In this document: positions 7,100-24,694 of the stretch, in pieces
How the letters are laid out: each line of letters opens with the position of its first letter
Position numbering within the stretch: position 1 is the first letter of the stretch
IMG/VR virus record: IMGVR_UViG_3300043438_000976
Location: 1-64,000 of that record
Length of the DNA: 64,000 bases
DNA from: a virus
Reading direction: 5' to 3' (one strand)
Notes under the pieces: generated by a model
What the model was told of the DNA's origin: nothing
Database searches by the model: none
What the model saw: the letters and a program-made list of their open reading frames with translations, nothing else
Translations under genes and position numbers: made by a program

Positions 7100-7387
7100 T
7101 TATATATTTAATAGTCTAACGTATCCAACAATGTCAATAGTGACTAATAGTAGATAGTTTGCAACCATGCCAGTACTCTTACGAGTCCAAGCAGCCCACC
7201 CGAATATTGCACATTGTAAAATGAATATAGGATATAGATAGAAAAATAAAGGATCAGTTGCTCCTGCGGCCAATGTTAAGGAACATCCGAGACTCATTAG
7301 CCAGGCAGCAATTTCTAATGAAAATCGAGTTGGCCACTCTCGATAATCAGTTCTCGCCCAATTATATATTTTTTGGACAAGGCCCAT
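7100..7387 (-). CDS. Small integral membrane protein
   Basis: 95 residues. A cationic amphipathic N-terminus (about 1-22) is followed by three hydrophobic segments near residues 25-42, 46-66 and 76-93, with a short WTRK loop before the last. No known family is recognised. Its ATG overlaps the stop of the DsbA-like gene by one base (TAATG), so it is coupled to it. Confidence 0.7.
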   Translation of the reverse strand: MGLVQKIYNWARTDYREWPTRFSLEIAAWLMSLGCSLTLAAGATDPLFFYLYPIFILQCAIFGWAAWTRKSTGMVANYLLLVTIDIVGYVRLLNI

Positions 7388-7656
7388 TAATCTTCCTTAC
7401 GAAAACTGTGACCGCTAATATCAACAATAGTTTCCAAATCATCAAACTCACGGAACACTTGATCCCATGTATCTTTTTGTGCAATCTTGATAGCCTTCTT
7501 GATAACGCTTGGCTTGACTTCAAGTTCCTCTGCAACAGCTTTGATTGTTTCATTCAATCCTTCTGTTAAGTCTTGAATTTCCTGCATAACTGTCATACCT
7601 TCTGCGACAATCTGCTTAATCTTTGCTTGCTCTGGTGCACCGAATGCTTTTGACAT
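7387..7656 (-). CDS. dsbA: DsbA-like double-stranded DNA-binding protein (T4 late-transcription regulator family)
   Basis: 89 residues, the same length as T4 DsbA, a small helical protein that binds double-stranded DNA near late promoters. The central LNETIKAVAEELEVKPS followed by IKKAIKIAQKD has the spacing of the T4 protein's YNELIKDI...ELGV...LLALYHKD region as I remember it. Similarity is modest, so the role is an inference. It has its own strong promoter (7680-7708) and an AGGAG site, consistent with early expression. Confidence 0.6.
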   Translation of the reverse strand: MSKAFGAPEQAKIKQIVAEGMTVMQEIQDLTEGLNETIKAVAEELEVKPSVIKKAIKIAQKDTWDQVFREFDDLETIVDISGHSFRKED

Positions 7657-8349: not shown

Positions 8350-8766
8350 TTATTCTTCTAGATTAACAGCGTCGGTATTAAAAAATTCAGGGTTCGCTTT
8401 ATTAAATTTACGCATCACAATACCAGCTAGTTCGTGTGCTTGATTTTCTTCAGGGCTACCGGTAGCACCCGCACCTGGCTTCAGTCCAGTTTCTTCGTTT
8501 TGTTTGTAATGTACCATCTCGTGTGCAAGAGTTCTTAAAATATCTAAAGGATGTCTATCTTCAATTGCAATATTGATTATTTTAGTTTCACTGTTAAAAC
8601 TACCAAAACTAGGTTGATCATCTACGCTGCCAATACGTAAATGCATTTTAATTTTTGGAACAGATTTTAATTTAAGTTCATTGACTGCAAAGGGAAGAAA
8701 CTCCTGAAGTATTTTCATAAAATCAGGTTTTGAATTTACATCCTCTAATAGGTCTATGATTTTCAT
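8350..8766 (-). CDS. Putative zinc metallopeptidase with HEMVH motif and a capsid-targeting-like leader
   Basis: 138 residues from the ATG at 8766, chosen because it forms a one-base TAATG overlap with the upstream stop; an in-frame ATG 33 bases earlier would add a poor extension. The N-terminus MKIIDLLED matches the leader type shared by its neighbours. The central LRTLAHEMVHYKQNEETG contains HExxH, the zinc-binding and catalytic helix of many small metallopeptidases, and ENQAHELAG further on could supply the third ligand. Substrate is unknown. If it is packaged in the capsid it could act in the host right after injection. Confidence 0.7.
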   Translation of the reverse strand: MKIIDLLEDVNSKPDFMKILQEFLPFAVNELKLKSVPKIKMHLRIGSVDDQPSFGSFNSETKIINIAIEDRHPLDILRTLAHEMVHYKQNEETGLKPGAGATGSPEENQAHELAGIVMRKFNKANPEFFNTDAVNLEE

Positions 8767-9953
8767 TACTTGATAATTCTTCGATCTAATGCTGCCCATA
8801 GCTTAGATTCGTAAGCTGGCTCTTTAGCCTTGTGTTTTACATCACCTTGCTTTTGTGCTTTCTTTTTATCTTTGTGAGCACCTGCACCACTTTGTACTGC
8901 GTTCTTGGCAACAAAGTTTCTAGGCTTAACTGCATGTTTCACAGCACGTACACCTTTCTTGTTTTCTTCTACACTTTGTTCTTCTACTTTGCCGGCATTG
9001 TGTGCTTTCCATGCAGCACCGTATGCCTTGCTTTTTTCAGTTTTAGTTAACTTACCATCTTTAGCATATCCCTTTTTAATATGCTTGACCATGCGTTCGG
9101 CTTTGGCTCCCGGCGGTGCTACCTCCGCCACACCTTCATTGTTTTCATCTTCAGCATCAAAATCATATTTGTCGTATTGAATGTGACCGTCGTGTCCGAT
9201 GCCAGACAGCACCACCATAACATAGTCGTCGCCATAATCGGGTTCCCATCCTAATGCTCTTAATTCATCTGCATTGTCGCCGTCAGTCCAGTATTGGTAA
9301 GCCAATGGAAATAATTTTGCCTTGTATTTTTCCATACTTGGCAAGTATGATGGATCAAGATCAACTGGTTCAAATTCTTGTGTCGGCCACATCTCGTCAG
9401 CATCGCCTGGAGTAATTTTTCCAGTCATTTTTCTCATTGATTTATCAAATTTTTCGTCACCTGTGGCCTCCGCCACACCTTGCTTTTTATTATCCAATTT
9501 GGTAAACGCTTTAACAAAATTAGGACCACTTTTCATGCGTTTTGTGTCACTGCGTTTTGTGGGATCCATTCTGTGTTTAAGATTATCTTTATCTAATTTT
9601 GTTAGATAACTGGTTAGCGTAGCATCACTAACCTCCGCCACACCTTGCTTGTATTGTGTATCTAAGTGACGCTTGATCTTTTCAGCCTTTTGACGAGCAG
9701 CCTCACGCTTTTGTGGGCTTGTTTCATTCTTGCTCCAATGCACTGCGGTGTCATGGTCTTTCTTTAGTTGAGCAATCTTATCTTCCTTGCCTTCCGCAGC
9801 GTTAGTTTCTTGAAACAACTTTCCACTATCCAATGCATTGTCAGTAGGTTTCTGACGTTTAATCATTCCCTTACTGCCTTTTGCAACTGTTGCTACTGAT
9901 GCTGAGCTTGTGCCTCCAGTAGTTGCTGATTCTAAAAGTTGTTTAATTCTCAT
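8766..9953 (-). CDS. Modular basic protein with leader and three xGVAE linkers
   Basis: 395 residues. It starts MRIKQLLESA, of the same leader type as its neighbours. GVAE tracts at residues 104-107, 159-162 and 274-277 separate dissimilar modules: a Lys-rich helical part, a short basic part and an acidic, Trp-rich globular domain (about 165-270), then a basic tail (about 283-395) rich in Lys and Ala (KKGYAKDGKLTKTEKSKAYG). Such basic modules would suit binding to packaged DNA. No enzyme motif is visible. The linkers are also nearly identical as DNA (see the repeat entry). A one-base overlap couples it to the metallopeptidase gene. Confidence 0.7.
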   Translation of the reverse strand: MRIKQLLESATTGGTSSASVATVAKGSKGMIKRQKPTDNALDSGKLFQETNAAEGKEDKIAQLKKDHDTAVHWSKNETSPQKREAARQKAEKIKRHLDTQYKQGVAEVSDATLTSYLTKLDKDNLKHRMDPTKRSDTKRMKSGPNFVKAFTKLDNKKQGVAEATGDEKFDKSMRKMTGKITPGDADEMWPTQEFEPVDLDPSYLPSMEKYKAKLFPLAYQYWTDGDNADELRALGWEPDYGDDYVMVVLSGIGHDGHIQYDKYDFDAEDENNEGVAEVAPPGAKAERMVKHIKKGYAKDGKLTKTEKSKAYGAAWKAHNAGKVEEQSVEENKKGVRAVKHAVKPRNFVAKNAVQSGAGAHKDKKKAQKQGDVKHKAKEPAYESKLWAALDRRIIK

Positions 9954-10321
9954 TTTGTTAGTTTCTTTCTATCTGGTACAGGCCCGTATATATTAGTCGA
10001 GTCTAACTCGCAACTATCCATATCGCCGTGATTCATATCTTCATAACTGGCACCGGCAGCTTTGTATGCTGCTTTGAGCATGTCTGCTTCCACTTGAGTG
10101 TAAGGATGTGCAGTCTTTTTCTTTCCTGCCCAACTCTTTGAATCGATGTCTAATTTATTTTTTCCATCGCTCATAGCTGCGGCCATGCCTACTCTAAAGC
10201 TAACATAACCGCTATCTGCTTTTTCGGCGTCTGAATAACGATGCAGACCCCTAGTAGATTGTTGCTGACGTTTTGTTATCTTACCTTCTTTTCTTTCAGC
10301 GATGAATTCTTTTGCTCTCAT
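9950..10321 (-). CDS. Small phage protein with T4-IPIII-like capsid-targeting leader
   Basis: 123 residues beginning MRAKEFIAERKEG. T4 internal proteins begin MKTYQEFIAE, which directs them into the prohead and is removed after the Glu by the gp21 protease. Here M..KEFIAE matches with two fewer residues. The rest (KRQQQSTRGLHRYSDAEKAD, then an Ala-rich helix) is soluble and charged with no known enzyme motif. The leader is the reason to propose a capsid-internal protein. It overlaps the next gene by 4 bases (ATGA). Confidence 0.7.
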   Translation of the reverse strand: MRAKEFIAERKEGKITKRQQQSTRGLHRYSDAEKADSGYVSFRVGMAAAMSDGKNKLDIDSKSWAGKKKTAHPYTQVEADMLKAAYKAAGASYEDMNHGDMDSCELDSTNIYGPVPDRKKLTK

Positions 10322-10329
10322 AATGTTAT

Positions 10330-10596
10330 TTATTTTTTACCAAACCAAAGTTCGAACCAAGCCGGTGTACCCGGTTTAATTCCTTGTTCACGCATTATGC
10401 GAGCATTTTCATTACCGTGCTGACTATGCAAAGGTGTGTCTCTCTTTTTTAAGTATTCACGCATACGCTGTTCTGCACCTAACTCTCCTAACCAGTTACT
10501 AGATTGTAGTGCATGTATAGGATCATCTGGGCTTAGAGCACAGTCTGGATCAGTTGAAGTATCTACAGGAAATCCTGCTATTCGATATTGCTTCAT
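10330..10596 (-). CDS. Small conserved phage protein, unknown
   Basis: 88 residues, soluble, ending IKPGTPAWFELWFGKK. The C-terminal GNENARIMREQGIKPG plus PxWFxLWF pattern looks like a short module that recurs in marine phage proteins. Unlike its neighbours it lacks the leader (MKQYRIAGF). It overlaps the stop of the giant upstream gene by 4 bases (ATGA). Confidence 0.65.
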   Translation of the reverse strand: MKQYRIAGFPVDTSTDPDCALSPDDPIHALQSSNWLGELGAEQRMREYLKKRDTPLHSQHGNENARIMREQGIKPGTPAWFELWFGKK

Positions 10597-13500
10597 TTAT
10601 TACTTTCAAACAGCTTTAGAATAGCCAGGGTCATTTCAAGTTCGTAGGCTTCGCCAATTGGCACACACTTGTCTTTACCGTTCTTAGTACCTGCGTACTT
10701 ATAACCTTTCCAACAGGCTTTGCCGTCTGCACCTTTAATCTTTTCTTTTAAGTTGCCCCATTCGTCTTTACTGGTTCGATCATTCTTAGCAATCTGTGTG
10801 CCCATGTACTGACTATCGCGTTTCTTATCACCAGCTGCTCTAAGTTTGGCTGTCATTCCATCTTTAGGATCAGTTAAGCGTTTAGATACAGTATCTATAG
10901 CATTGCTGCCAGCCTCCGCCATACCTTGCTCTCTATGCTTTTTAGCATCATTATCAAACTGCTTGTTAGTTGCTTTAACAATTCCTTTGAAACGTTTATG
11001 ACCCTTAGCATAGTCGCCCGCTTTGTCTGCGGCAGTTGCTTGATCACCGGCGGCCTTTTTATATTGTCCTAATTTTTCATTGGACAACTCTGCGACAATC
11101 TGTCTTAAACTTTCTACAGCCTTGCTTTCGTTGATCTTAGGATCCATGCCCATTTCTTTTTGGCTTAACAAATAATCCCAGACACTGACCAACATCATTT
11201 CTGCTTTGGCAATCTTTTCTTGTCCCCATTCTGGCAAGTTATCGTTGCTCTTAATAGTTTTTAATAAACCATCAACTGCACGAGCCATTGTGCGTAGATT
11301 ACTCTGTGCCATTCCTGCTTCGTCGTCGTATTCGCCGTTGAAGTCTTCATTCTTAGCTTTTGCTTTACCTGCTTTCATATTTGCCATCCAATGTGCTAAT
11401 TGTCCTTTACGGCCGCCTTGTTTAGCTACTTTACGTAGATTGCTCACTGACGATTTTGTAGGAACGCCGTGACGTTTACTGTCGCCCTTGTCTTGTGGAT
11501 TACGTCCATCCGCAAAGTTTTCTGCTACAGATCGATCTCCGCTCTGTAAAAGAGATACAATTTTAGGTGCTCTTCTACCAACTTGTGAATACCATGCACT
11601 ATTTTTTAATGCATTTGCTGCTTGATCTATGTTTCCTGCTTGCATGGCTTTTGTAAAATTAGGCCAAGCCTTCCACCATCTTGGACCCATGTTAAATGTT
11701 AGATCAATTAGAGCAGCCTGTCCGTTCATGTTTAAATTACTAAATCCAGGAATTTTTTCTGCTGCCTGTTTATGATGCTGATAATCCTTTTTAAACAGAT
11801 TCATTATTTCTGCGTCTGAAAATGTTCTTTTCCACTCTGAAGGGAGAGTCTTGCCATCACCAATTAAGTGACCTACTCCTACAGTCCATAATCCTTTTGT
11901 ATCTTGGTATGGTTTATTTTTTACACCTTCATGATCTTTAACCATATTCATGATATCGTCTTCACTAGAAATTTTAGTAACAGCCGCTTTGGCCCTATCT
12001 CTTGCTGGTTGATCTATGTTTGTGTTAGGACCACTTCGAACTCCGGTTTGGGTTGGTTCGTCGGGCCGGACGGTTGCTGGATTAACGACCCCCCTGCCAC
12101 CACCCATTTCTGGTTTTTGTTGACCAACAAATGCCTGTGCTTTATCTCTTGTCGTTTGATCTATGTTAGAGTTTGGACCTTGTTTAACTGAGGGTTGGGG
12201 CATTGGAGAAGATTGATCTTTCACTTGTCTTGCCGCAATTGTAGACAGGGTATCTCCAGGCATTACTTTATAAGTTGTGCCGTTAGGCAATTTTAACATC
12301 TGCCCTGCATTAATTTTGTTCACATCTTTAATATTGTTTAATGATGCAATTTTTAACATTTGCCGTTTACTGTTGCTGTTGTCTTGTGGATTACGACTAT
12401 CAGCAAAGTTTTCTTGATTCATGCTCTCACCACCATCACTACCACCATCTCCACCGTTACCACTATAACCTGCATCAAATCCGTACCAACCATATGGCCC
12501 TGGACCCCATGCTGCACCTTTACTTTTTTTACGTTTACGTTCTTCAATAGTCTTTTCATTTACAATTTTTTTAGGACTCATTAGTGCATTAAACAATCTC
12601 ATTTCACCTAGTGCAGGTTGTTGAACAGTCTGCGGAGTAGGTAGTACAGCAGGCTTCTTAACTGCTGGCTTTGGTTGAGGTGTGCTCATTCCGGTCTTTG
12701 ACACATCCATTAAATGTTTAATCCATTGTGACGGTAATGGTTTTGCTCCATCCTGGCCGCCATTGAATGCATCATTCCACATTTGGAATGCTTGTTGCTC
12801 ATCTCCAGTTTTTAACACGTTACGTAGCTTAGTAAAGCTCATGCCAGTTCCTCTAGGAGTAACTTCTAATTGTACCTTAACATGCTCGTATCCAGGAAAC
12901 TTATTAACTGCCTTCATTAGGGCCTGTGCGATAGGCATCTTGGCCTGATCTTCACCTACCATAATAATAACATTATCGTAGCGTGGTGGCTTGCCTGGCA
13001 ACGGGTTGATTAACTCGTGCTTGATCTTTTGCATCAAAGATCCGCCCTCTTGTGTTACAGCACTGATATTGCCTGCATACTCGGGATACAATTGTTTCCA
13101 AGTTTTAATTTTGTCAGCAACTGGAATAGGATCGTCTGCACCTACTGCACTGCCCATAAACAGATAAGGATCGCCGCTGACTTCTTTTGCCTTATTAATT
13201 GTAAGACCAAATAGCTGTTGATGACCTTTGTGTCCCACAAAGCTACCGATAGCAACTACCGCAGTTTTGTTTTCACCACGCGGCTGTTCTGCACGAGCGG
13301 CAGCTTTGGCAGCGTTCTTTTGGGTAATAATATCTTTTTGTTGTTGGCTAGTAACTTTGATAGGGCCAAGACGACTGTTGATAACAATACCTTCGTAGTC
13401 TTGACCTAATATATCTTTGCCAATAATGTTAGGATCTGCATCAATTGCCTTTTCCAGTGCAATCTTAACAGGCATTAATTTTTCTTCTACTTCGCGTCTT

Positions 13501-15401
13501 AGTTGCAAACTGGCACGATCTCTTTTGCCTGCTGTGTCAGATACAATTTGTTTTAGTTCTTCGATATTATCTAAAGGATTAATAATCTCAGTAACATCAA
13601 GTCCGTCTTTTTGTACTAGACTATTACTAAGGAATCTAACACTTCCTTGTCCGCCTAATTTGCTTAGACTTGTAACAACATCGTTAGCATCAGGTACATC
13701 TTCTCCGGAACTAGCATCTACTACACGGAACGGCACAAGAACTAATTCTACACCTGGAGGAAACTTATCGTATTGAATTCCTACAAATTTTAATTTGCCC
13801 TCTGACGTTTCGGCTGCAAACGGCAAGAACAATACTTCACAGGTGACCTGTTTATTAACAAGAAAGTCTGCACCTAGCTTGCTATCAACCAATTTGATAG
13901 CGTTCATCATTTCATTAAACAGTTCATCAAACTTTTCTGCACGACCTAAAATTTCAGGATCAGTTGTGCCCTTGTCTTGATGATATTGTACAAATCCTGC
14001 TTTATATCTTGGAGGAGTATTGCTGGTAGCCATAAAAGGCTTGCCTTCTGCATCCTTACCAAAACGTCCGCCAAATCCGTCAATCTTAACATTTAACGGA
14101 ATGTTTTGTAATTTAAAATTACCATTACCATCGTGAATCTCGTCCAATAGATCTAAAAAGTCAATAGGCTTTAGATCACGTAGGTGTGGCATGTTCTTAC
14201 GGAACTGTGCTTTAACTTCTGCTTCTTGCAAACTTTCAGCAGTAACTCTGTACGATGCCTTGTATTGCTGCTTCATCTGTTCAAGATCACTAGGTGTCTG
14301 AACTCCTAATTTATTGATCATTAAATCCAATGCAGCAGATTTTTCTGCACTATCACGCTCTGGATCGCCTTTGTAAAGACCTTGGGCACCCTTGCCAAAT
14401 ATTTTGTCAATAAATGCAGACAACACTGACTGCTTTTCTTCTGGAGTTACTAGCGTATTCATTGCATCAACTAAACCAGTAAAGCTCCAGTACTTGCTTT
14501 CTAATTGTGCAGCTTGTTTAGGATTTAATCTCGAACCAAAGATAGATCCAAAAATCTTTCCAATGTCTTGTTCGTAACCAGTTGCTGGTAATGCCTGCAT
14601 AACTGGCATACCGTTACTAATTAAAGGCTGTCCGTTTGCATCTAATACTGGTTCGTATTTGGCACGTAGGCCGCCGCCTTCTTTACTGGATACTGCAAAG
14701 CTGACCATGTTATCAGTTGTAGGAACATCTTGTATTTCTTTGGCCTTGCCTCGTCCTACAGCTTTGCGTAGTAAGAAATCTTTTCTACTTAATGATGCTA
14801 GACTTTGAATTAAAAACTTGTGGAATACACCCTTAACTCCTGCGTTTAGATCATCCCAGCTGCTGCTATGACTAAATTTGCTCCATGGAGTGGGTTCGTC
14901 TTTGTCAAACTCTACAAATTCTAAGTCAATTTGCACTTTAATAGGTGGGTCTTGTAGCTCCCATAAACTGGAGAATTGTTCGTTGCCTCTTTGGAAACCT
15001 AAGAACTTGGCATTGCCTACCATCTTACCTTGACTAGCAGATAACCATTGTTCTAATTCTTGTTCGTTTTCTTTGTTGACCTGTGTGTCAATGTCGCCTA
15101 CTTTTGGTTTCTTTTCTACAAATTGTTGGTCAGTAATACCTTTGGTATTAAAGAAGTGTAGACTACTTCCACTTAGAAATTGTTTACTCTGTAGTAGTTG
15201 CGGATTCCACAAAGGTTTTTTGTATTTTTTTGCAAAAGAACTGTTGATATTAATCAACAGTGTATCTAAAATTGGTACAATGTAGGAACGATTATGCACT
15301 TTAAGATCGATTTGCTGTGCATCGTGCCCGCCAGGTAGCGATAAATTTCCACCTTCTGACACAACTTTCTTTTTGTTACTAAACAGCTCATTTAAATTCA
15401 T
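10593..15401 (-). CDS. Giant modular protein: nucleotidyltransferase, nucleic-acid-ligase-like, NMNAT-like, LysM and T4-type lysozyme
   Basis: 1602 residues. Leader MNLNELF resembles that of T4 Alt (MELITELF). Residues about 40-210 look like a polymerase-beta-type nucleotidyltransferase: GSS (78-80), GDID (D103, D105) and a later QIDLEF (D159). Residues about 430-690 carry ligase-type motifs: KIDG (K439), CEVLFLPF (521-528), YEGIV (669-673) and a terminal Lys at 682 in PIKVTS. Residues about 712-880 have GSFVGHKGH (HxGH at 724-727) and SFTKLR (855-860), the NadM/NMN adenylyltransferase signature. A Gly-rich linker (961-992) follows, then a LysM-like part (about 1015-1060) and a GH24 lysozyme (about 1145-1290) with the E1158-D1167-T1173 triad. 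The C-terminal 300 residues are short modules including ENFADGRNPQD and CWKGYK. A packaged and proteolytically divided polyprotein is my inference. Confidence 0.8.
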   Translation of the reverse strand: MNLNELFSNKKKVVSEGGNLSLPGGHDAQQIDLKVHNRSYIVPILDTLLININSSFAKKYKKPLWNPQLLQSKQFLSGSSLHFFNTKGITDQQFVEKKPKVGDIDTQVNKENEQELEQWLSASQGKMVGNAKFLGFQRGNEQFSSLWELQDPPIKVQIDLEFVEFDKDEPTPWSKFSHSSSWDDLNAGVKGVFHKFLIQSLASLSRKDFLLRKAVGRGKAKEIQDVPTTDNMVSFAVSSKEGGGLRAKYEPVLDANGQPLISNGMPVMQALPATGYEQDIGKIFGSIFGSRLNPKQAAQLESKYWSFTGLVDAMNTLVTPEEKQSVLSAFIDKIFGKGAQGLYKGDPERDSAEKSAALDLMINKLGVQTPSDLEQMKQQYKASYRVTAESLQEAEVKAQFRKNMPHLRDLKPIDFLDLLDEIHDGNGNFKLQNIPLNVKIDGFGGRFGKDAEGKPFMATSNTPPRYKAGFVQYHQDKGTTDPEILGRAEKFDELFNEMMNAIKLVDSKLGADFLVNKQVTCEVLFLPFAAETSEGKLKFVGIQYDKFPPGVELVLVPFRVVDASSGEDVPDANDVVTSLSKLGGQGSVRFLSNSLVQKDGLDVTEIINPLDNIEELKQIVSDTAGKRDRASLQLRREVEEKLMPVKIALEKAIDADPNIIGKDILGQDYEGIVINSRLGPIKVTSQQQKDIITQKNAAKAAARAEQPRGENKTAVVAIGSFVGHKGHQQLFGLTINKAKEVSGDPYLFMGSAVGADDPIPVADKIKTWKQLYPEYAGNISAVTQEGGSLMQKIKHELINPLPGKPPRYDNVIIMVGEDQAKMPIAQALMKAVNKFPGYEHVKVQLEVTPRGTGMSFTKLRNVLKTGDEQQAFQMWNDAFNGGQDGAKPLPSQWIKHLMDVSKTGMSTPQPKPAVKKPAVLPTPQTVQQPALGEMRLFNALMSPKKIVNEKTIEERKRKKSKGAAWGPGPYGWYGFDAGYSGNGGDGGSDGGESMNQENFADSRNPQDNSNSKRQMLKIASLNNIKDVNKINAGQMLKLPNGTTYKVMPGDTLSTIAARQVKDQSSPMPQPSVKQGPNSNIDQTTRDKAQAFVGQQKPEMGGGRGVVNPATVRPDEPTQTGVRSGPNTNIDQPARDRAKAAVTKISSEDDIMNMVKDHEGVKNKPYQDTKGLWTVGVGHLIGDGKTLPSEWKRTFSDAEIMNLFKKDYQHHKQAAEKIPGFSNLNMNGQAALIDLTFNMGPRWWKAWPNFTKAMQAGNIDQAANALKNSAWYSQVGRRAPKIVSLLQSGDRSVAENFADGRNPQDKGDSKRHGVPTKSSVSNLRKVAKQGGRKGQLAHWMANMKAGKAKAKNEDFNGEYDDEAGMAQSNLRTMARAVDGLLKTIKSNDNLPEWGQEKIAKAEMMLVSVWDYLLSQKEMGMDPKINESKAVESLRQIVAELSNEKLGQYKKAAGDQATAADKAGDYAKGHKRFKGIVKATNKQFDNDAKKHREQGMAEAGSNAIDTVSKRLTDPKDGMTAKLRAAGDKKRDSQYMGTQIAKNDRTSKDEWGNLKEKIKGADGKACWKGYKYAGTKNGKDKCVPIGEAYELEMTLAILKLFESNK
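11473..12414 (-). repeat. Duplicated module ENFAD(G/S)RNPQD within the giant gene
   Basis: Two 51-base segments, 11473-11523 and 12364-12414, share most bases and encode ENFADGRNPQDKGDSKR and ENFADSRNPQDNSNSKR. A second in-gene duplication encodes GPNSNIDQTTRDKAQA and GPNTNIDQPARDRAKA (residues 1075-1090 and 1124-1139). Both flank the LysM and lysozyme domains, suggesting these were inserted or shuffled as cassettes. Confidence 0.7.
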
Positions 15402-15402
15402 T

Positions 15403-15777
15403 TTATTTTCCTAATTGATATAGGCCTTTGAGAATGTCGCCGTTATAGTGTTCTGATAATCGAGTGCATAAAGACTCTCTAAACTCTTTAGAAAATAACT
15501 TTACAGGATCTTCTTTAAGATCAAATTTGTGATAAAATTTCATGCAGCCTTTGTTTGCCAATGGCATCCAAACTTTTGGAGTATGCTCATCAGTCGGTTT
15601 GTTTCCAATCTCTTCTGCGATTGGGAAGAAGACCTTTTTATGCAAATTGTCGTCATTTATGATATACTCTAGTATATCCTCTAACATCTGTGTTTCTTGA
15701 AGTTTGTCAGTTTCTTCATTTCTCGACGGCTTGTCGTTTTTGATGTTTAATCGTCCAAAGAATTCATTTAATAGCAT
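15403..15777 (-). CDS. Small phage protein with capsid-targeting-like leader
   Basis: 124 residues beginning MLLNELFGRLN, the fifth leader of the MxxxELF type in this block. The rest is acidic and helical (MLEDILEYIINDDNLHKKVFF) and ends in LYQLGK; no motif is recognised. It is the first gene of the block and is preceded by a 71-base gap with a CTAAATA motif, so it may head a late transcript that continues through the giant gene (1-base gap). Confidence 0.65.
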   Translation of the reverse strand: MLLNEFFGRLNIKNDKPSRNEETDKLQETQMLEDILEYIINDDNLHKKVFFPIAEEIGNKPTDEHTPKVWMPLANKGCMKFYHKFDLKEDPVKLFSKEFRESLCTRLSEHYNGDILKGLYQLGK

Positions 15778-24686: not shown

Positions 24687-24694
24687 TATTTATA
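24687..24694 (-). promoter_or_regulatory. T4-type late promoter, exact TATAAATA
   Basis: Minus-strand TATAAATA, identical to the T4 late -10 consensus, 18 bases before the ATG at 24669, with AAAGAG between as ribosome-binding site. It lies inside the loop of an inverted repeat (GGGTTCT/AGAACCC at about 24672-24710) between two divergent genes. Confidence 0.6.

Follow-up and report, generated by a model that had tools for sequence, protein, structure and literature searches.

A predicted cargo island with T4-type leaders and protease-site junctions in a large T4-like phage

Known systems and the locus considered

The closest described counterpart of the locus considered here is the internal protein (IP) system of phage T4. 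According to the portions consulted of PMC9026906, the T4 protease gp21 cuts after L/I-x-E, the first ten residues of IPIII are enough for targeting, Alt is cut at its C-terminus as well, and the core proteins gp22 and gp67 are cut by gp21 into fragments. The locus itself is a block of six genes, all on the minus strand, at 8350-15777 of the window, the 64,000-nucleotide stretch of DNA analysed (positions 1 to 64,000 of IMG/VR virus record IMGVR_UViG_3300043438_000976, a 164-kb fragment). Five of the six genes have related N-terminal leaders, and the block is, judging by sequence, very probably a cargo island of a large T4-like phage, in which capsid-targeted and gp21-cut proteins, including polyproteins, would be encoded for entry into the host with the DNA.

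Three other systems bear on this locus: (i) phage SPN3US, in which N-terminal propeptides are removed at 13 of the 14 cleavage sites found, and the C-terminal propeptide of the protease itself at the remaining one (PMC10052503, consulted in part), (ii) the polyvalent proteins of phages and conjugative elements, which are predicted to enter with the DNA (Iyer 2017, PMC5512222, in the sections seen), and (iii) jumbo phages, which pair Pol-beta nucleotidyltransferases with RNA ligases for RNA repair (PMC7824862, likewise in part). The DNA polymerase of the 164-kb record is closest to those of the jumbo phages Phosso (51%) and Atu_ph07 (47%), and for the first 20 kb of the window the phage collection, from which near copies are possibly omitted, gives no close match at the DNA level. 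A preliminary description of the window, made from its letters, had proposed a set of packaged and injected proteins; the sequence comparisons reported below support this interpretation in part.

Leaders and their conservation

In order of transcription, the products of the block begin MLLNEFF (read earlier as MLLNELF), MNLNELF, MKQYRIAGF (leaderless), MRAKEFIAE, MRIKQLLES and MKIIDLLED; the run of five leaders among six genes described earlier is confirmed. The longest frame of the last gene (8350-8799) begins MGSIRSKNYQV, with MKIIDLLED at codon 12; the latter start is nevertheless likely, since its ATG at 8766 adjoins the stop codon of the preceding gene and the longest frame of the relative L007 begins directly at MKIIDLLEN. 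In the T4 record, IPII and IPIII begin MKTYQEFIAE and Alt begins MELITELFDE, as the preliminary description had given for the IPs and, in the shorter form MELITELF, for Alt. The near match that it saw in MRAKEFIAE is borne out by the string EFIAE common to this leader and IPII/IPIII. An L/I-x-Glu also ends MRIKQLLE and MKIIDLLE, while the giant protein of the block has V-S-E at residue 16.

Relatives were located through an 89-residue anchor gene that was picked without regard to leaders. The sample comprises the best 80 of 591 loci and thus represents close kin; the anchor was recognised in 72 loci, and eight in which the anchor pattern missed the gene were dropped. The leader pattern, M-x-[AILVFM]-x-[EDQN]-[LFIV]-[ILFVY], was derived from the window, where it occurs in 5 of 79 open reading frames (ORFs), all inside the block; this count is circular given the origin of the pattern, and it was discarded in favour of the anchor-based sample. 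In the 72 loci, the pattern is found in 101/342 ORFs on the island side of the anchor and in 0/442 on the other side, which corresponds to 86 of 252 distinct island ORFs and none of 389 distinct control ORFs after de-duplication. Internal Met positions match it in 18 of 4611 cases (4/1789 plus 14/2822). By single-linkage cluster the leader is present in 10/31 island and 0/46 control clusters (Fisher P 4e-5), a conservative figure as 111 modular ORFs merged into one cluster; when any Met within the first 26 residues is allowed, the counts become 107/252 and 1/389. Across relatives, the leaders are conserved, while the protein bodies differ. The consensus of 70 distinct leaders is M-[RK]-[AIL]-x-[ED]-[FL]-[LIF]-x-E, with the Glu mostly at residue 9 or 8, and an aliphatic-or-Phe-x-Glu site lies within residues 7-20 of 58 of them, compared to 80 of the 389 control N-termini. 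The leader of the first block gene is also kept in relatives (MKLLEFF, MKLYEFF, MLLNEFF).

The genes of the block overlap or abut, so coupling signals at their starts could be common, and the leader could in principle be a translation-start or regulatory feature shared in one operon and unrelated to packaging. This explanation is most improbable, as genes of this record that lie beyond the block also carry such leaders (MRAHEFINE, MRAREFLKE) and the constraint falls on amino acids typical of T4 leaders, with Glu at the gp21 position. Elsewhere in the record, the pattern is found in 4 of 152 ORFs, three of which are convincing by eye. The starts MRAHEFINE and MRAREFLKE belong to the genes L211:18110-18394 and L212:4558-6246, outside the window; with leader-bearing genes beyond the block, the cargo may extend further than the six genes.

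The boundary of the nucleotidyltransferase

The predicted cut of the giant protein lies in E/GGN (the slash marks the cut), directly before a nucleotidyltransferase-like domain. Twelve fetched ORFs match this domain, one of which is cut off by the contig end. The remaining 11, some near-identical to the window, all carry aliphatic-x-E/GGN; in ten the motif ends a leader, and in L013 it marks a junction within the protein, at residue 143, that follows another domain. A pattern search returned 17 distinct N-termini of 5-17 residues ending E/GGN, the window's included; as the search could find only this form, the 17 are a list and not a rate. Leaderless homologues begin MGGN, with an in-frame stop upstream, in Vibrio phages Va1 and phiKT1024 and Stenotrophomonas phage Ps15; the MGGN start of Xanthomonas phage X1 is as annotated only, its frame being open for 38 codons upstream. 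Thus, the predicted cut behind Glu would yield the N-terminus of the leaderless homologues. In Campylobacter phages, the nucleotidyltransferase begins MKLSELMFILE/GGN; that of IBB_35 (AEF56792.1, 388 residues) has a leader, and the published virion proteome of this phage, seen in part, lists 38 proteins.

Module junctions

The upstream contexts of eight modules were collected from 2152 distinct ORFs of 187 fetched loci, with contexts counted as non-redundant when at most 5 of 12 residues are alike. In 91/105 contexts, the module is preceded at a distance of 0-4 residues by the end of an [LIVMF]-x-E site, compared to 249/3424 (7.3%) control positions further upstream. For the NFADG module, Glu is at P1 in 47 of 47 contexts and L/I/V/M/A at P3 in 41 of 47, with P2 free. 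The KGADGK module has the site in 8/9 contexts, and the EYDDEAG module of the window is preceded directly by AKNE, with no aliphatic P3; the values for other modules are listed in Table 1. Parts of the giant and of the 395-residue protein recur in other contigs in different settings. The NFADG, WSQKYKSS, nucleotidyltransferase, ligase and HxGH modules are also found behind leaders in other genes, and NFADG stands almost alone behind leaders in tiny genes (MRIHELLSE/NFADG, MRINELLE/NFADG). As a query, the NFADG module behind a leader has no match at E 1e-3 among 50,697 GenBank phage records, from which near copies are possibly omitted. The string G[VM]AE is found in 58/252 island ORFs and 0/389 controls. 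The preliminary impression of the giant as a polyprotein agrees with these gp21-like sites at its module junctions.

The junctions could instead be recombination seams or flexible linkers that aid module exchange and are left uncut. QGVAE-type strings are recurrent, and the NFADG module occurs in different settings across contigs at up to 95% identity, as such seams would predict. By contrast, the 47 contexts of this module differ from one another and are constrained at P1 and P3 only, with P2 and the preceding residues free, a pattern that resembles a protease site, not a DNA seam. This boundary is also found behind leaders, and E/GGN is the native start of leaderless homologues. The seam explanation is, thus, improbable.

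The 395-residue protein has six [LIVM]-x-Glu sites, with Glu at 8, 107, 162, 277, 325 and 330; its modules are common to other contigs, and it has partial matches in 14 cyanophage records. In cyanophage S-RSM4 (L079:15380-16317), GAKAERM-like and KGxDGKACWKGYK modules stand singly in small genes, one of which begins MKTFKQFREE, and a cytidyltransferase gene is close by. Recurring C-terminal tails after Glu, such as SEDIENKMSNLIRLLENK and AESNWYELRLARLLESDLKK, are noted in the window (10593-10649 and 8769-8810) and in L011, L124 and L149, and tails akin to the end of the giant occur in relatives. By analogy to Alt, which is cut at both ends, such tails may be C-terminal targeting tags.

Domains of the giant protein

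The first domain of the giant (model pLDDT 89.6) has the motifs GS, DID and QIDLE. Among PDB entries it matches Pol beta/mu and terminal transferases best (Foldseek E 3.8e-3), with a marginal VIA Z of 8.3 to Pol-beta types at a root-mean-square deviation (rmsd) of 3.9 over 179 residues; by sequence, PDB chains give two weak rows only (E 0.15, 0.18). When the giant was scanned against Pfam at E 0.1, RlaP did not appear, and the fold of the domain resembles Pol-beta types only. The second domain (pLDDT 86.3) has ligases as its best rows (Foldseek E 2.1e-3), RNA ligases as the best VIA rows (Z 11.7, rmsd 3.4 over 191 residues) and K-[IV]-DG in 12/12 rows; a sequence search of PDB chains found nothing, and Foldseek gives no row at E 1e-3 for either domain. 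With the KxDG motif and the ligase fold of the model, residues 393-705 are a predicted ATP-dependent RNA/DNA ligase. The HxGH domain has a weak FAD_syn match below the cut-off (E 0.0042), and in relatives it is a separate gene with a leader-like start. As jumbo phages pair Pol-beta nucleotidyltransferases with RNA ligases, an RNA-repair role of the enzymes of the giant is suggested by analogy.

The lysozyme (PF00959, residues 1155-1279, E 1.1e-15) follows a LysM domain (E 1.1e-6) and matches, among others, the baseplate-hub/tail-lysozyme family phrog_13211 (E 1.8e-9), as would be expected of a tail or baseplate protein. That the giant is such a protein is highly unlikely, since Pfam and PHROGs scans match no further baseplate domain in it, its lysozyme sits in one chain with nucleic-acid enzymes, and it has a leader and junctions.

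Table 1. Features of the block and of the adjoining anchor gene (minus strand throughout; block genes in order of transcription, with the segments of the giant below it)
Feature	Position	Residues	Remarks
124-residue protein	15403..15777 (-)		leader MLLNEFF; first block gene
1602-residue giant protein	10593..15401 (-)	1-1602	leader MNLNELF; read as cargo polyprotein
Leader of giant	15354..15401 (-)	1-16	MNLNELFSNKKKVVSE; predicted cut before GGN
Pol-beta-type nucleotidyltransferase-like domain	14226..15353 (-)	17-392	GSS...GDIDTQV...QIDLEF
ATP-dependent RNA-ligase-like domain	13287..14225 (-)	393-705	KIDGFGGRFG, DYEGIVI
HxGH nucleotidylyltransferase-like domain	12597..13286 (-)	706-935	GSFVGHKGH
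Internal leader-like stretch	12555..12602 (-)	934-949	MRLFNALMSPKKIVNE; aliphatic-x-Glu at end
LysM and phage lysozyme segment	11520..12410 (-)	998-1294	
NFADG module	11352..11519 (-)	1295-1350	SVAE before
EYDDEAG module	11127..11351 (-)	1351-1425	site in 12/20 contexts (weakest module)
LSNEKL module	10914..11087 (-)	1439-1496	IVAE before; site in 6/6 contexts
SNAIDTV module	10743..10913 (-)	1497-1553	GMAE before; site in 3/4 contexts
KGADGK module and C-terminal tail	10593..10742 (-)	1554-1584; tail 1585-1602	tail AYELEMTLAILKLFESNK
88-residue protein	10330..10596 (-)		no leader (MKQYRI...); kept across island
123-residue protein	9950..10321 (-)		leader MRAKEFIAE, nearest to T4 IP leader
395-residue modular protein	8766..9953 (-)		leader MRIKQLLE/SATTGGTS
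138-residue HExxH protein	8350..8766 (-)		leader MKIIDLLED; AHEMVHYKQ
89-residue regulator-like gene	7387..7656 (-)		conserved; island anchor; phrog_12534, E 3.9e-17

Prohead protease and head proteins

A T4-type gp21 and gp23 are encoded by G002, a 122-kb contig that carries the giant gene at 100% identity, and both are present in 5 of the 20 records searched besides the window's own, G002 and Vibrio phage Va1 among the five. The gp21 of G002 keeps EVDHP and GVSSRG, compared to ELNHP and GVSSRG in T4 gp21; the His and Ser of these motifs are presumably the catalytic residues. In the aligned gp23 of G002, the propeptide ends RKYLAE/SATAGATS, which resembles QLLE/SATTGGTS of the 395-residue protein.

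The leader-bearing proteins could be targeted to the capsid and cut, and serve head assembly or DNA condensation, as core proteins or T4-like internal peptides, instead of being injected effectors. This would fit with the fragmentation of T4 gp22 and gp67 noted above, with two leader-like genes that lie within the head gene region of G002, and with the basic character of the G[VM]AE-bearing modular proteins, whose median net charge per residue exceeds that of controls (+0.018 vs -0.019). On the other side, enzymes with identifiable motifs (Pol-beta type, ligase type, lysozyme and HExxH) are part of the cargo, which differs strongly among relatives, unlike assembly proteins; a purely structural role is, thus, rather unlikely, though a minority possibility of some weight. 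Within the block, the basic character described earlier applies to the giant (net charge +29), the 395-residue (+14) and the 123-residue (+5) proteins and not to the metallopeptidase-like (-6) and 124-residue (-3) proteins. The metallopeptidase call itself goes back to an HExxH motif seen by eye and to family matches below threshold (DUF6782, putative metallopeptidase, E 0.015).

In the head-gene neighbourhood of G002 (L091:12521-13432), a 303-residue protein starts MKIIELVETREPIEEG and ends ESVEFYSNFLGKII, both ends being leader-like. The gp22 of G002 (L091:4339-5448) ends DIRKLAGLK, and some island proteins hold or start with MDELDYIKKLAGI or MDELAQLKRLAGV (L042:11232-11537, L074:10387-10602); a second leader type that mimics the C-terminus of the scaffold itself is possible.

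The variable island and its separate genes

The enzymes of the giant are separate and mostly leader-bearing genes in L042, L102, L105 and L158. In these loci, the ligase-like genes begin MRFREFVLKE, MKIRELIIE or MKIRELLSE, the HxGH-like genes have the internal start MLLRQLFE, MFLRNIFE or MLLKNLFE, and the nucleotidyltransferase has a five-residue start only, ending E/GGN. A full leader precedes the nucleotidyltransferase in L100 and L136 (MRIRELLSE, MRIKELLTE), the MRIRELLSE/GGN protein being 321 residues long.

The leaderless 88-residue protein of the block has 40 matching ORFs among the fetched loci and no family match in Pfam and PHROGs scans. The 123-residue protein has no match at E 1e-3 in the GenBank phage records, where near copies are possibly omitted. 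The island of a relative includes a ferritin-like gene (L011:6483-6935, PF00210, E 5.8e-17), presumably Dps-like, to which a 14-member island ORF cluster is similar by eye. The L100 island has a 155-residue ORF (MAKYETKQH...) that is HNH endonuclease-like by eye, and it is possible that this ORF drives rearrangement of the island. The string TATAAATA, which is taken here to be the T4 late promoter core, has one copy in the window (24687-24694) compared to 5.4 expected by chance; this copy is 8.9 kb upstream of the block, ahead of a co-directional run that leads to it, and the match was given no weight as evidence.

Counter-evidence

Several observations weigh against the proposal that the block encodes gp21-cut cargo. 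First, searches for gp21 and gp23 came up empty in the 164-kb record of the window, which is a fragment, and in 15 of the other 20. Second, sites are missing where they would be expected: 14 of the 105 junctions, 12 of the 70 leaders and the 124-residue protein of the window (close behind the leader), and the boundary between the ligase-like and HxGH domains of the giant lack one. Five of the 17 N-termini before GGN are only five residues long (e.g., MQLNE/GGN), short of a full leader. Third, T4 sites have L/I at P3, and many sites here have V or M. Fourth, [LIVM]-x-E is not enriched overall, with 150 sites vs 136.6 expected in 31 island cluster representatives and 159 vs 146.6 in controls. 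The GVAE form is enriched in island proteins (8 vs 0.4 expected), and [LIVM]-x-E is special only through its placement at junctions and in this form. The C-terminal tag pattern is likewise not enriched (12/252 island and 25/389 control ORFs). Fifth, module starts were picked after the junctions had been seen; the bias so introduced is lessened by the free P2 and by the leader cases, yet not eliminated. Finally, the corresponding region of jumbo phage Atu_ph07 lacks a leader island (the nearest phage, Phosso, was left out of this comparison), and the KxDG-bearing and cytidyltransferase genes of S-RSM4 are both leaderless; the system, thus, looks lineage-bound.

Proposed mechanism

In the proposed mechanism, the leader would bind the scaffold core and bring the protein into the prohead, where gp21 would cut behind the Glu of an aliphatic-x-Glu site and free the mature protein. 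The giant and the 395-residue protein would be polyproteins; with sites of the same kind recurring between modules, one leader would carry several products, and modules that begin at such sites could be joined to any leader or module, which may explain their shuffling between phages. By analogy to T4 IPs and Alt, the products would remain inside the capsid and pass into the host together with the DNA. A Pol-beta-like nucleotidyltransferase, joined to the RNA-ligase-like and HxGH transferase domains, would come first among them and may constitute an RNA-repair kit that is on hand at time zero. A broader scheme is more speculative and is offered tentatively: uncultured large T4-like phages might share an open cargo system in which a grammar of leader and protease sites receives a swapped payload that is matured in the prohead and delivered at time zero, with the nucleotidyltransferase and ligase repairing RNA cut by host defence nucleases before phage expression.

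Significance and comparison with known systems

Packaged phage proteins have so far been found mostly by proteomics of cultured phages. With the grammar of leader and junction, packaged proteins of uncultured phages would become readable from their sequences, and a pool of proteins that likely act early comes into view. T4-style packaging would become a predicted polyprotein system and, if confirmed in virions, a ready-made payload delivered along with the viral DNA. Titles and abstract starts in open-licence PMC revealed no description of this leader island or of polyproteins with swappable modules that a prohead protease processes.

The island resembles T4 IPI/IPII/IPIII and Alt in its short N-terminal leader, the Glu at the cut, the variable cargo, and the T4-type gp21 and gp23 of the lineage. 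It differs from them in having many more members in one variable island and long proteins with repeated internal sites, often with V/M at P3, and the block has no match to T4 internal-protein families in Pfam and PHROGs scans. What is new relative to the T4 system is the grammar of the polyproteins, together with the variable island. Similarly to SPN3US (gp245) and phiKZ (gp175), head proteins would be cut after the Glu of a short motif; the large ejected load of SPN3US also has a likeness here, where it is predicted from sequence. Unlike the propeptide sites of SPN3US, the sites of the island separate exchangeable modules. Like the polyvalent proteins, in the part of their description seen, the products are long and multi-domain and combine peptidase, lysozyme and nucleic-acid enzymes; the domain set is different, and a T4 leader or gp21 junction rule does not appear in that part. 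The placement of a Pol-beta-like nucleotidyltransferase beside an RNA-ligase-like enzyme recalls the RlaP-type nucleotidyltransferase and Rnl2-type RNA ligase of jumbo phages (PMC7824862, in the portions consulted). Unlike that pair, the two enzymes form one chain here, which bears a leader and is a predicted packaged protein.

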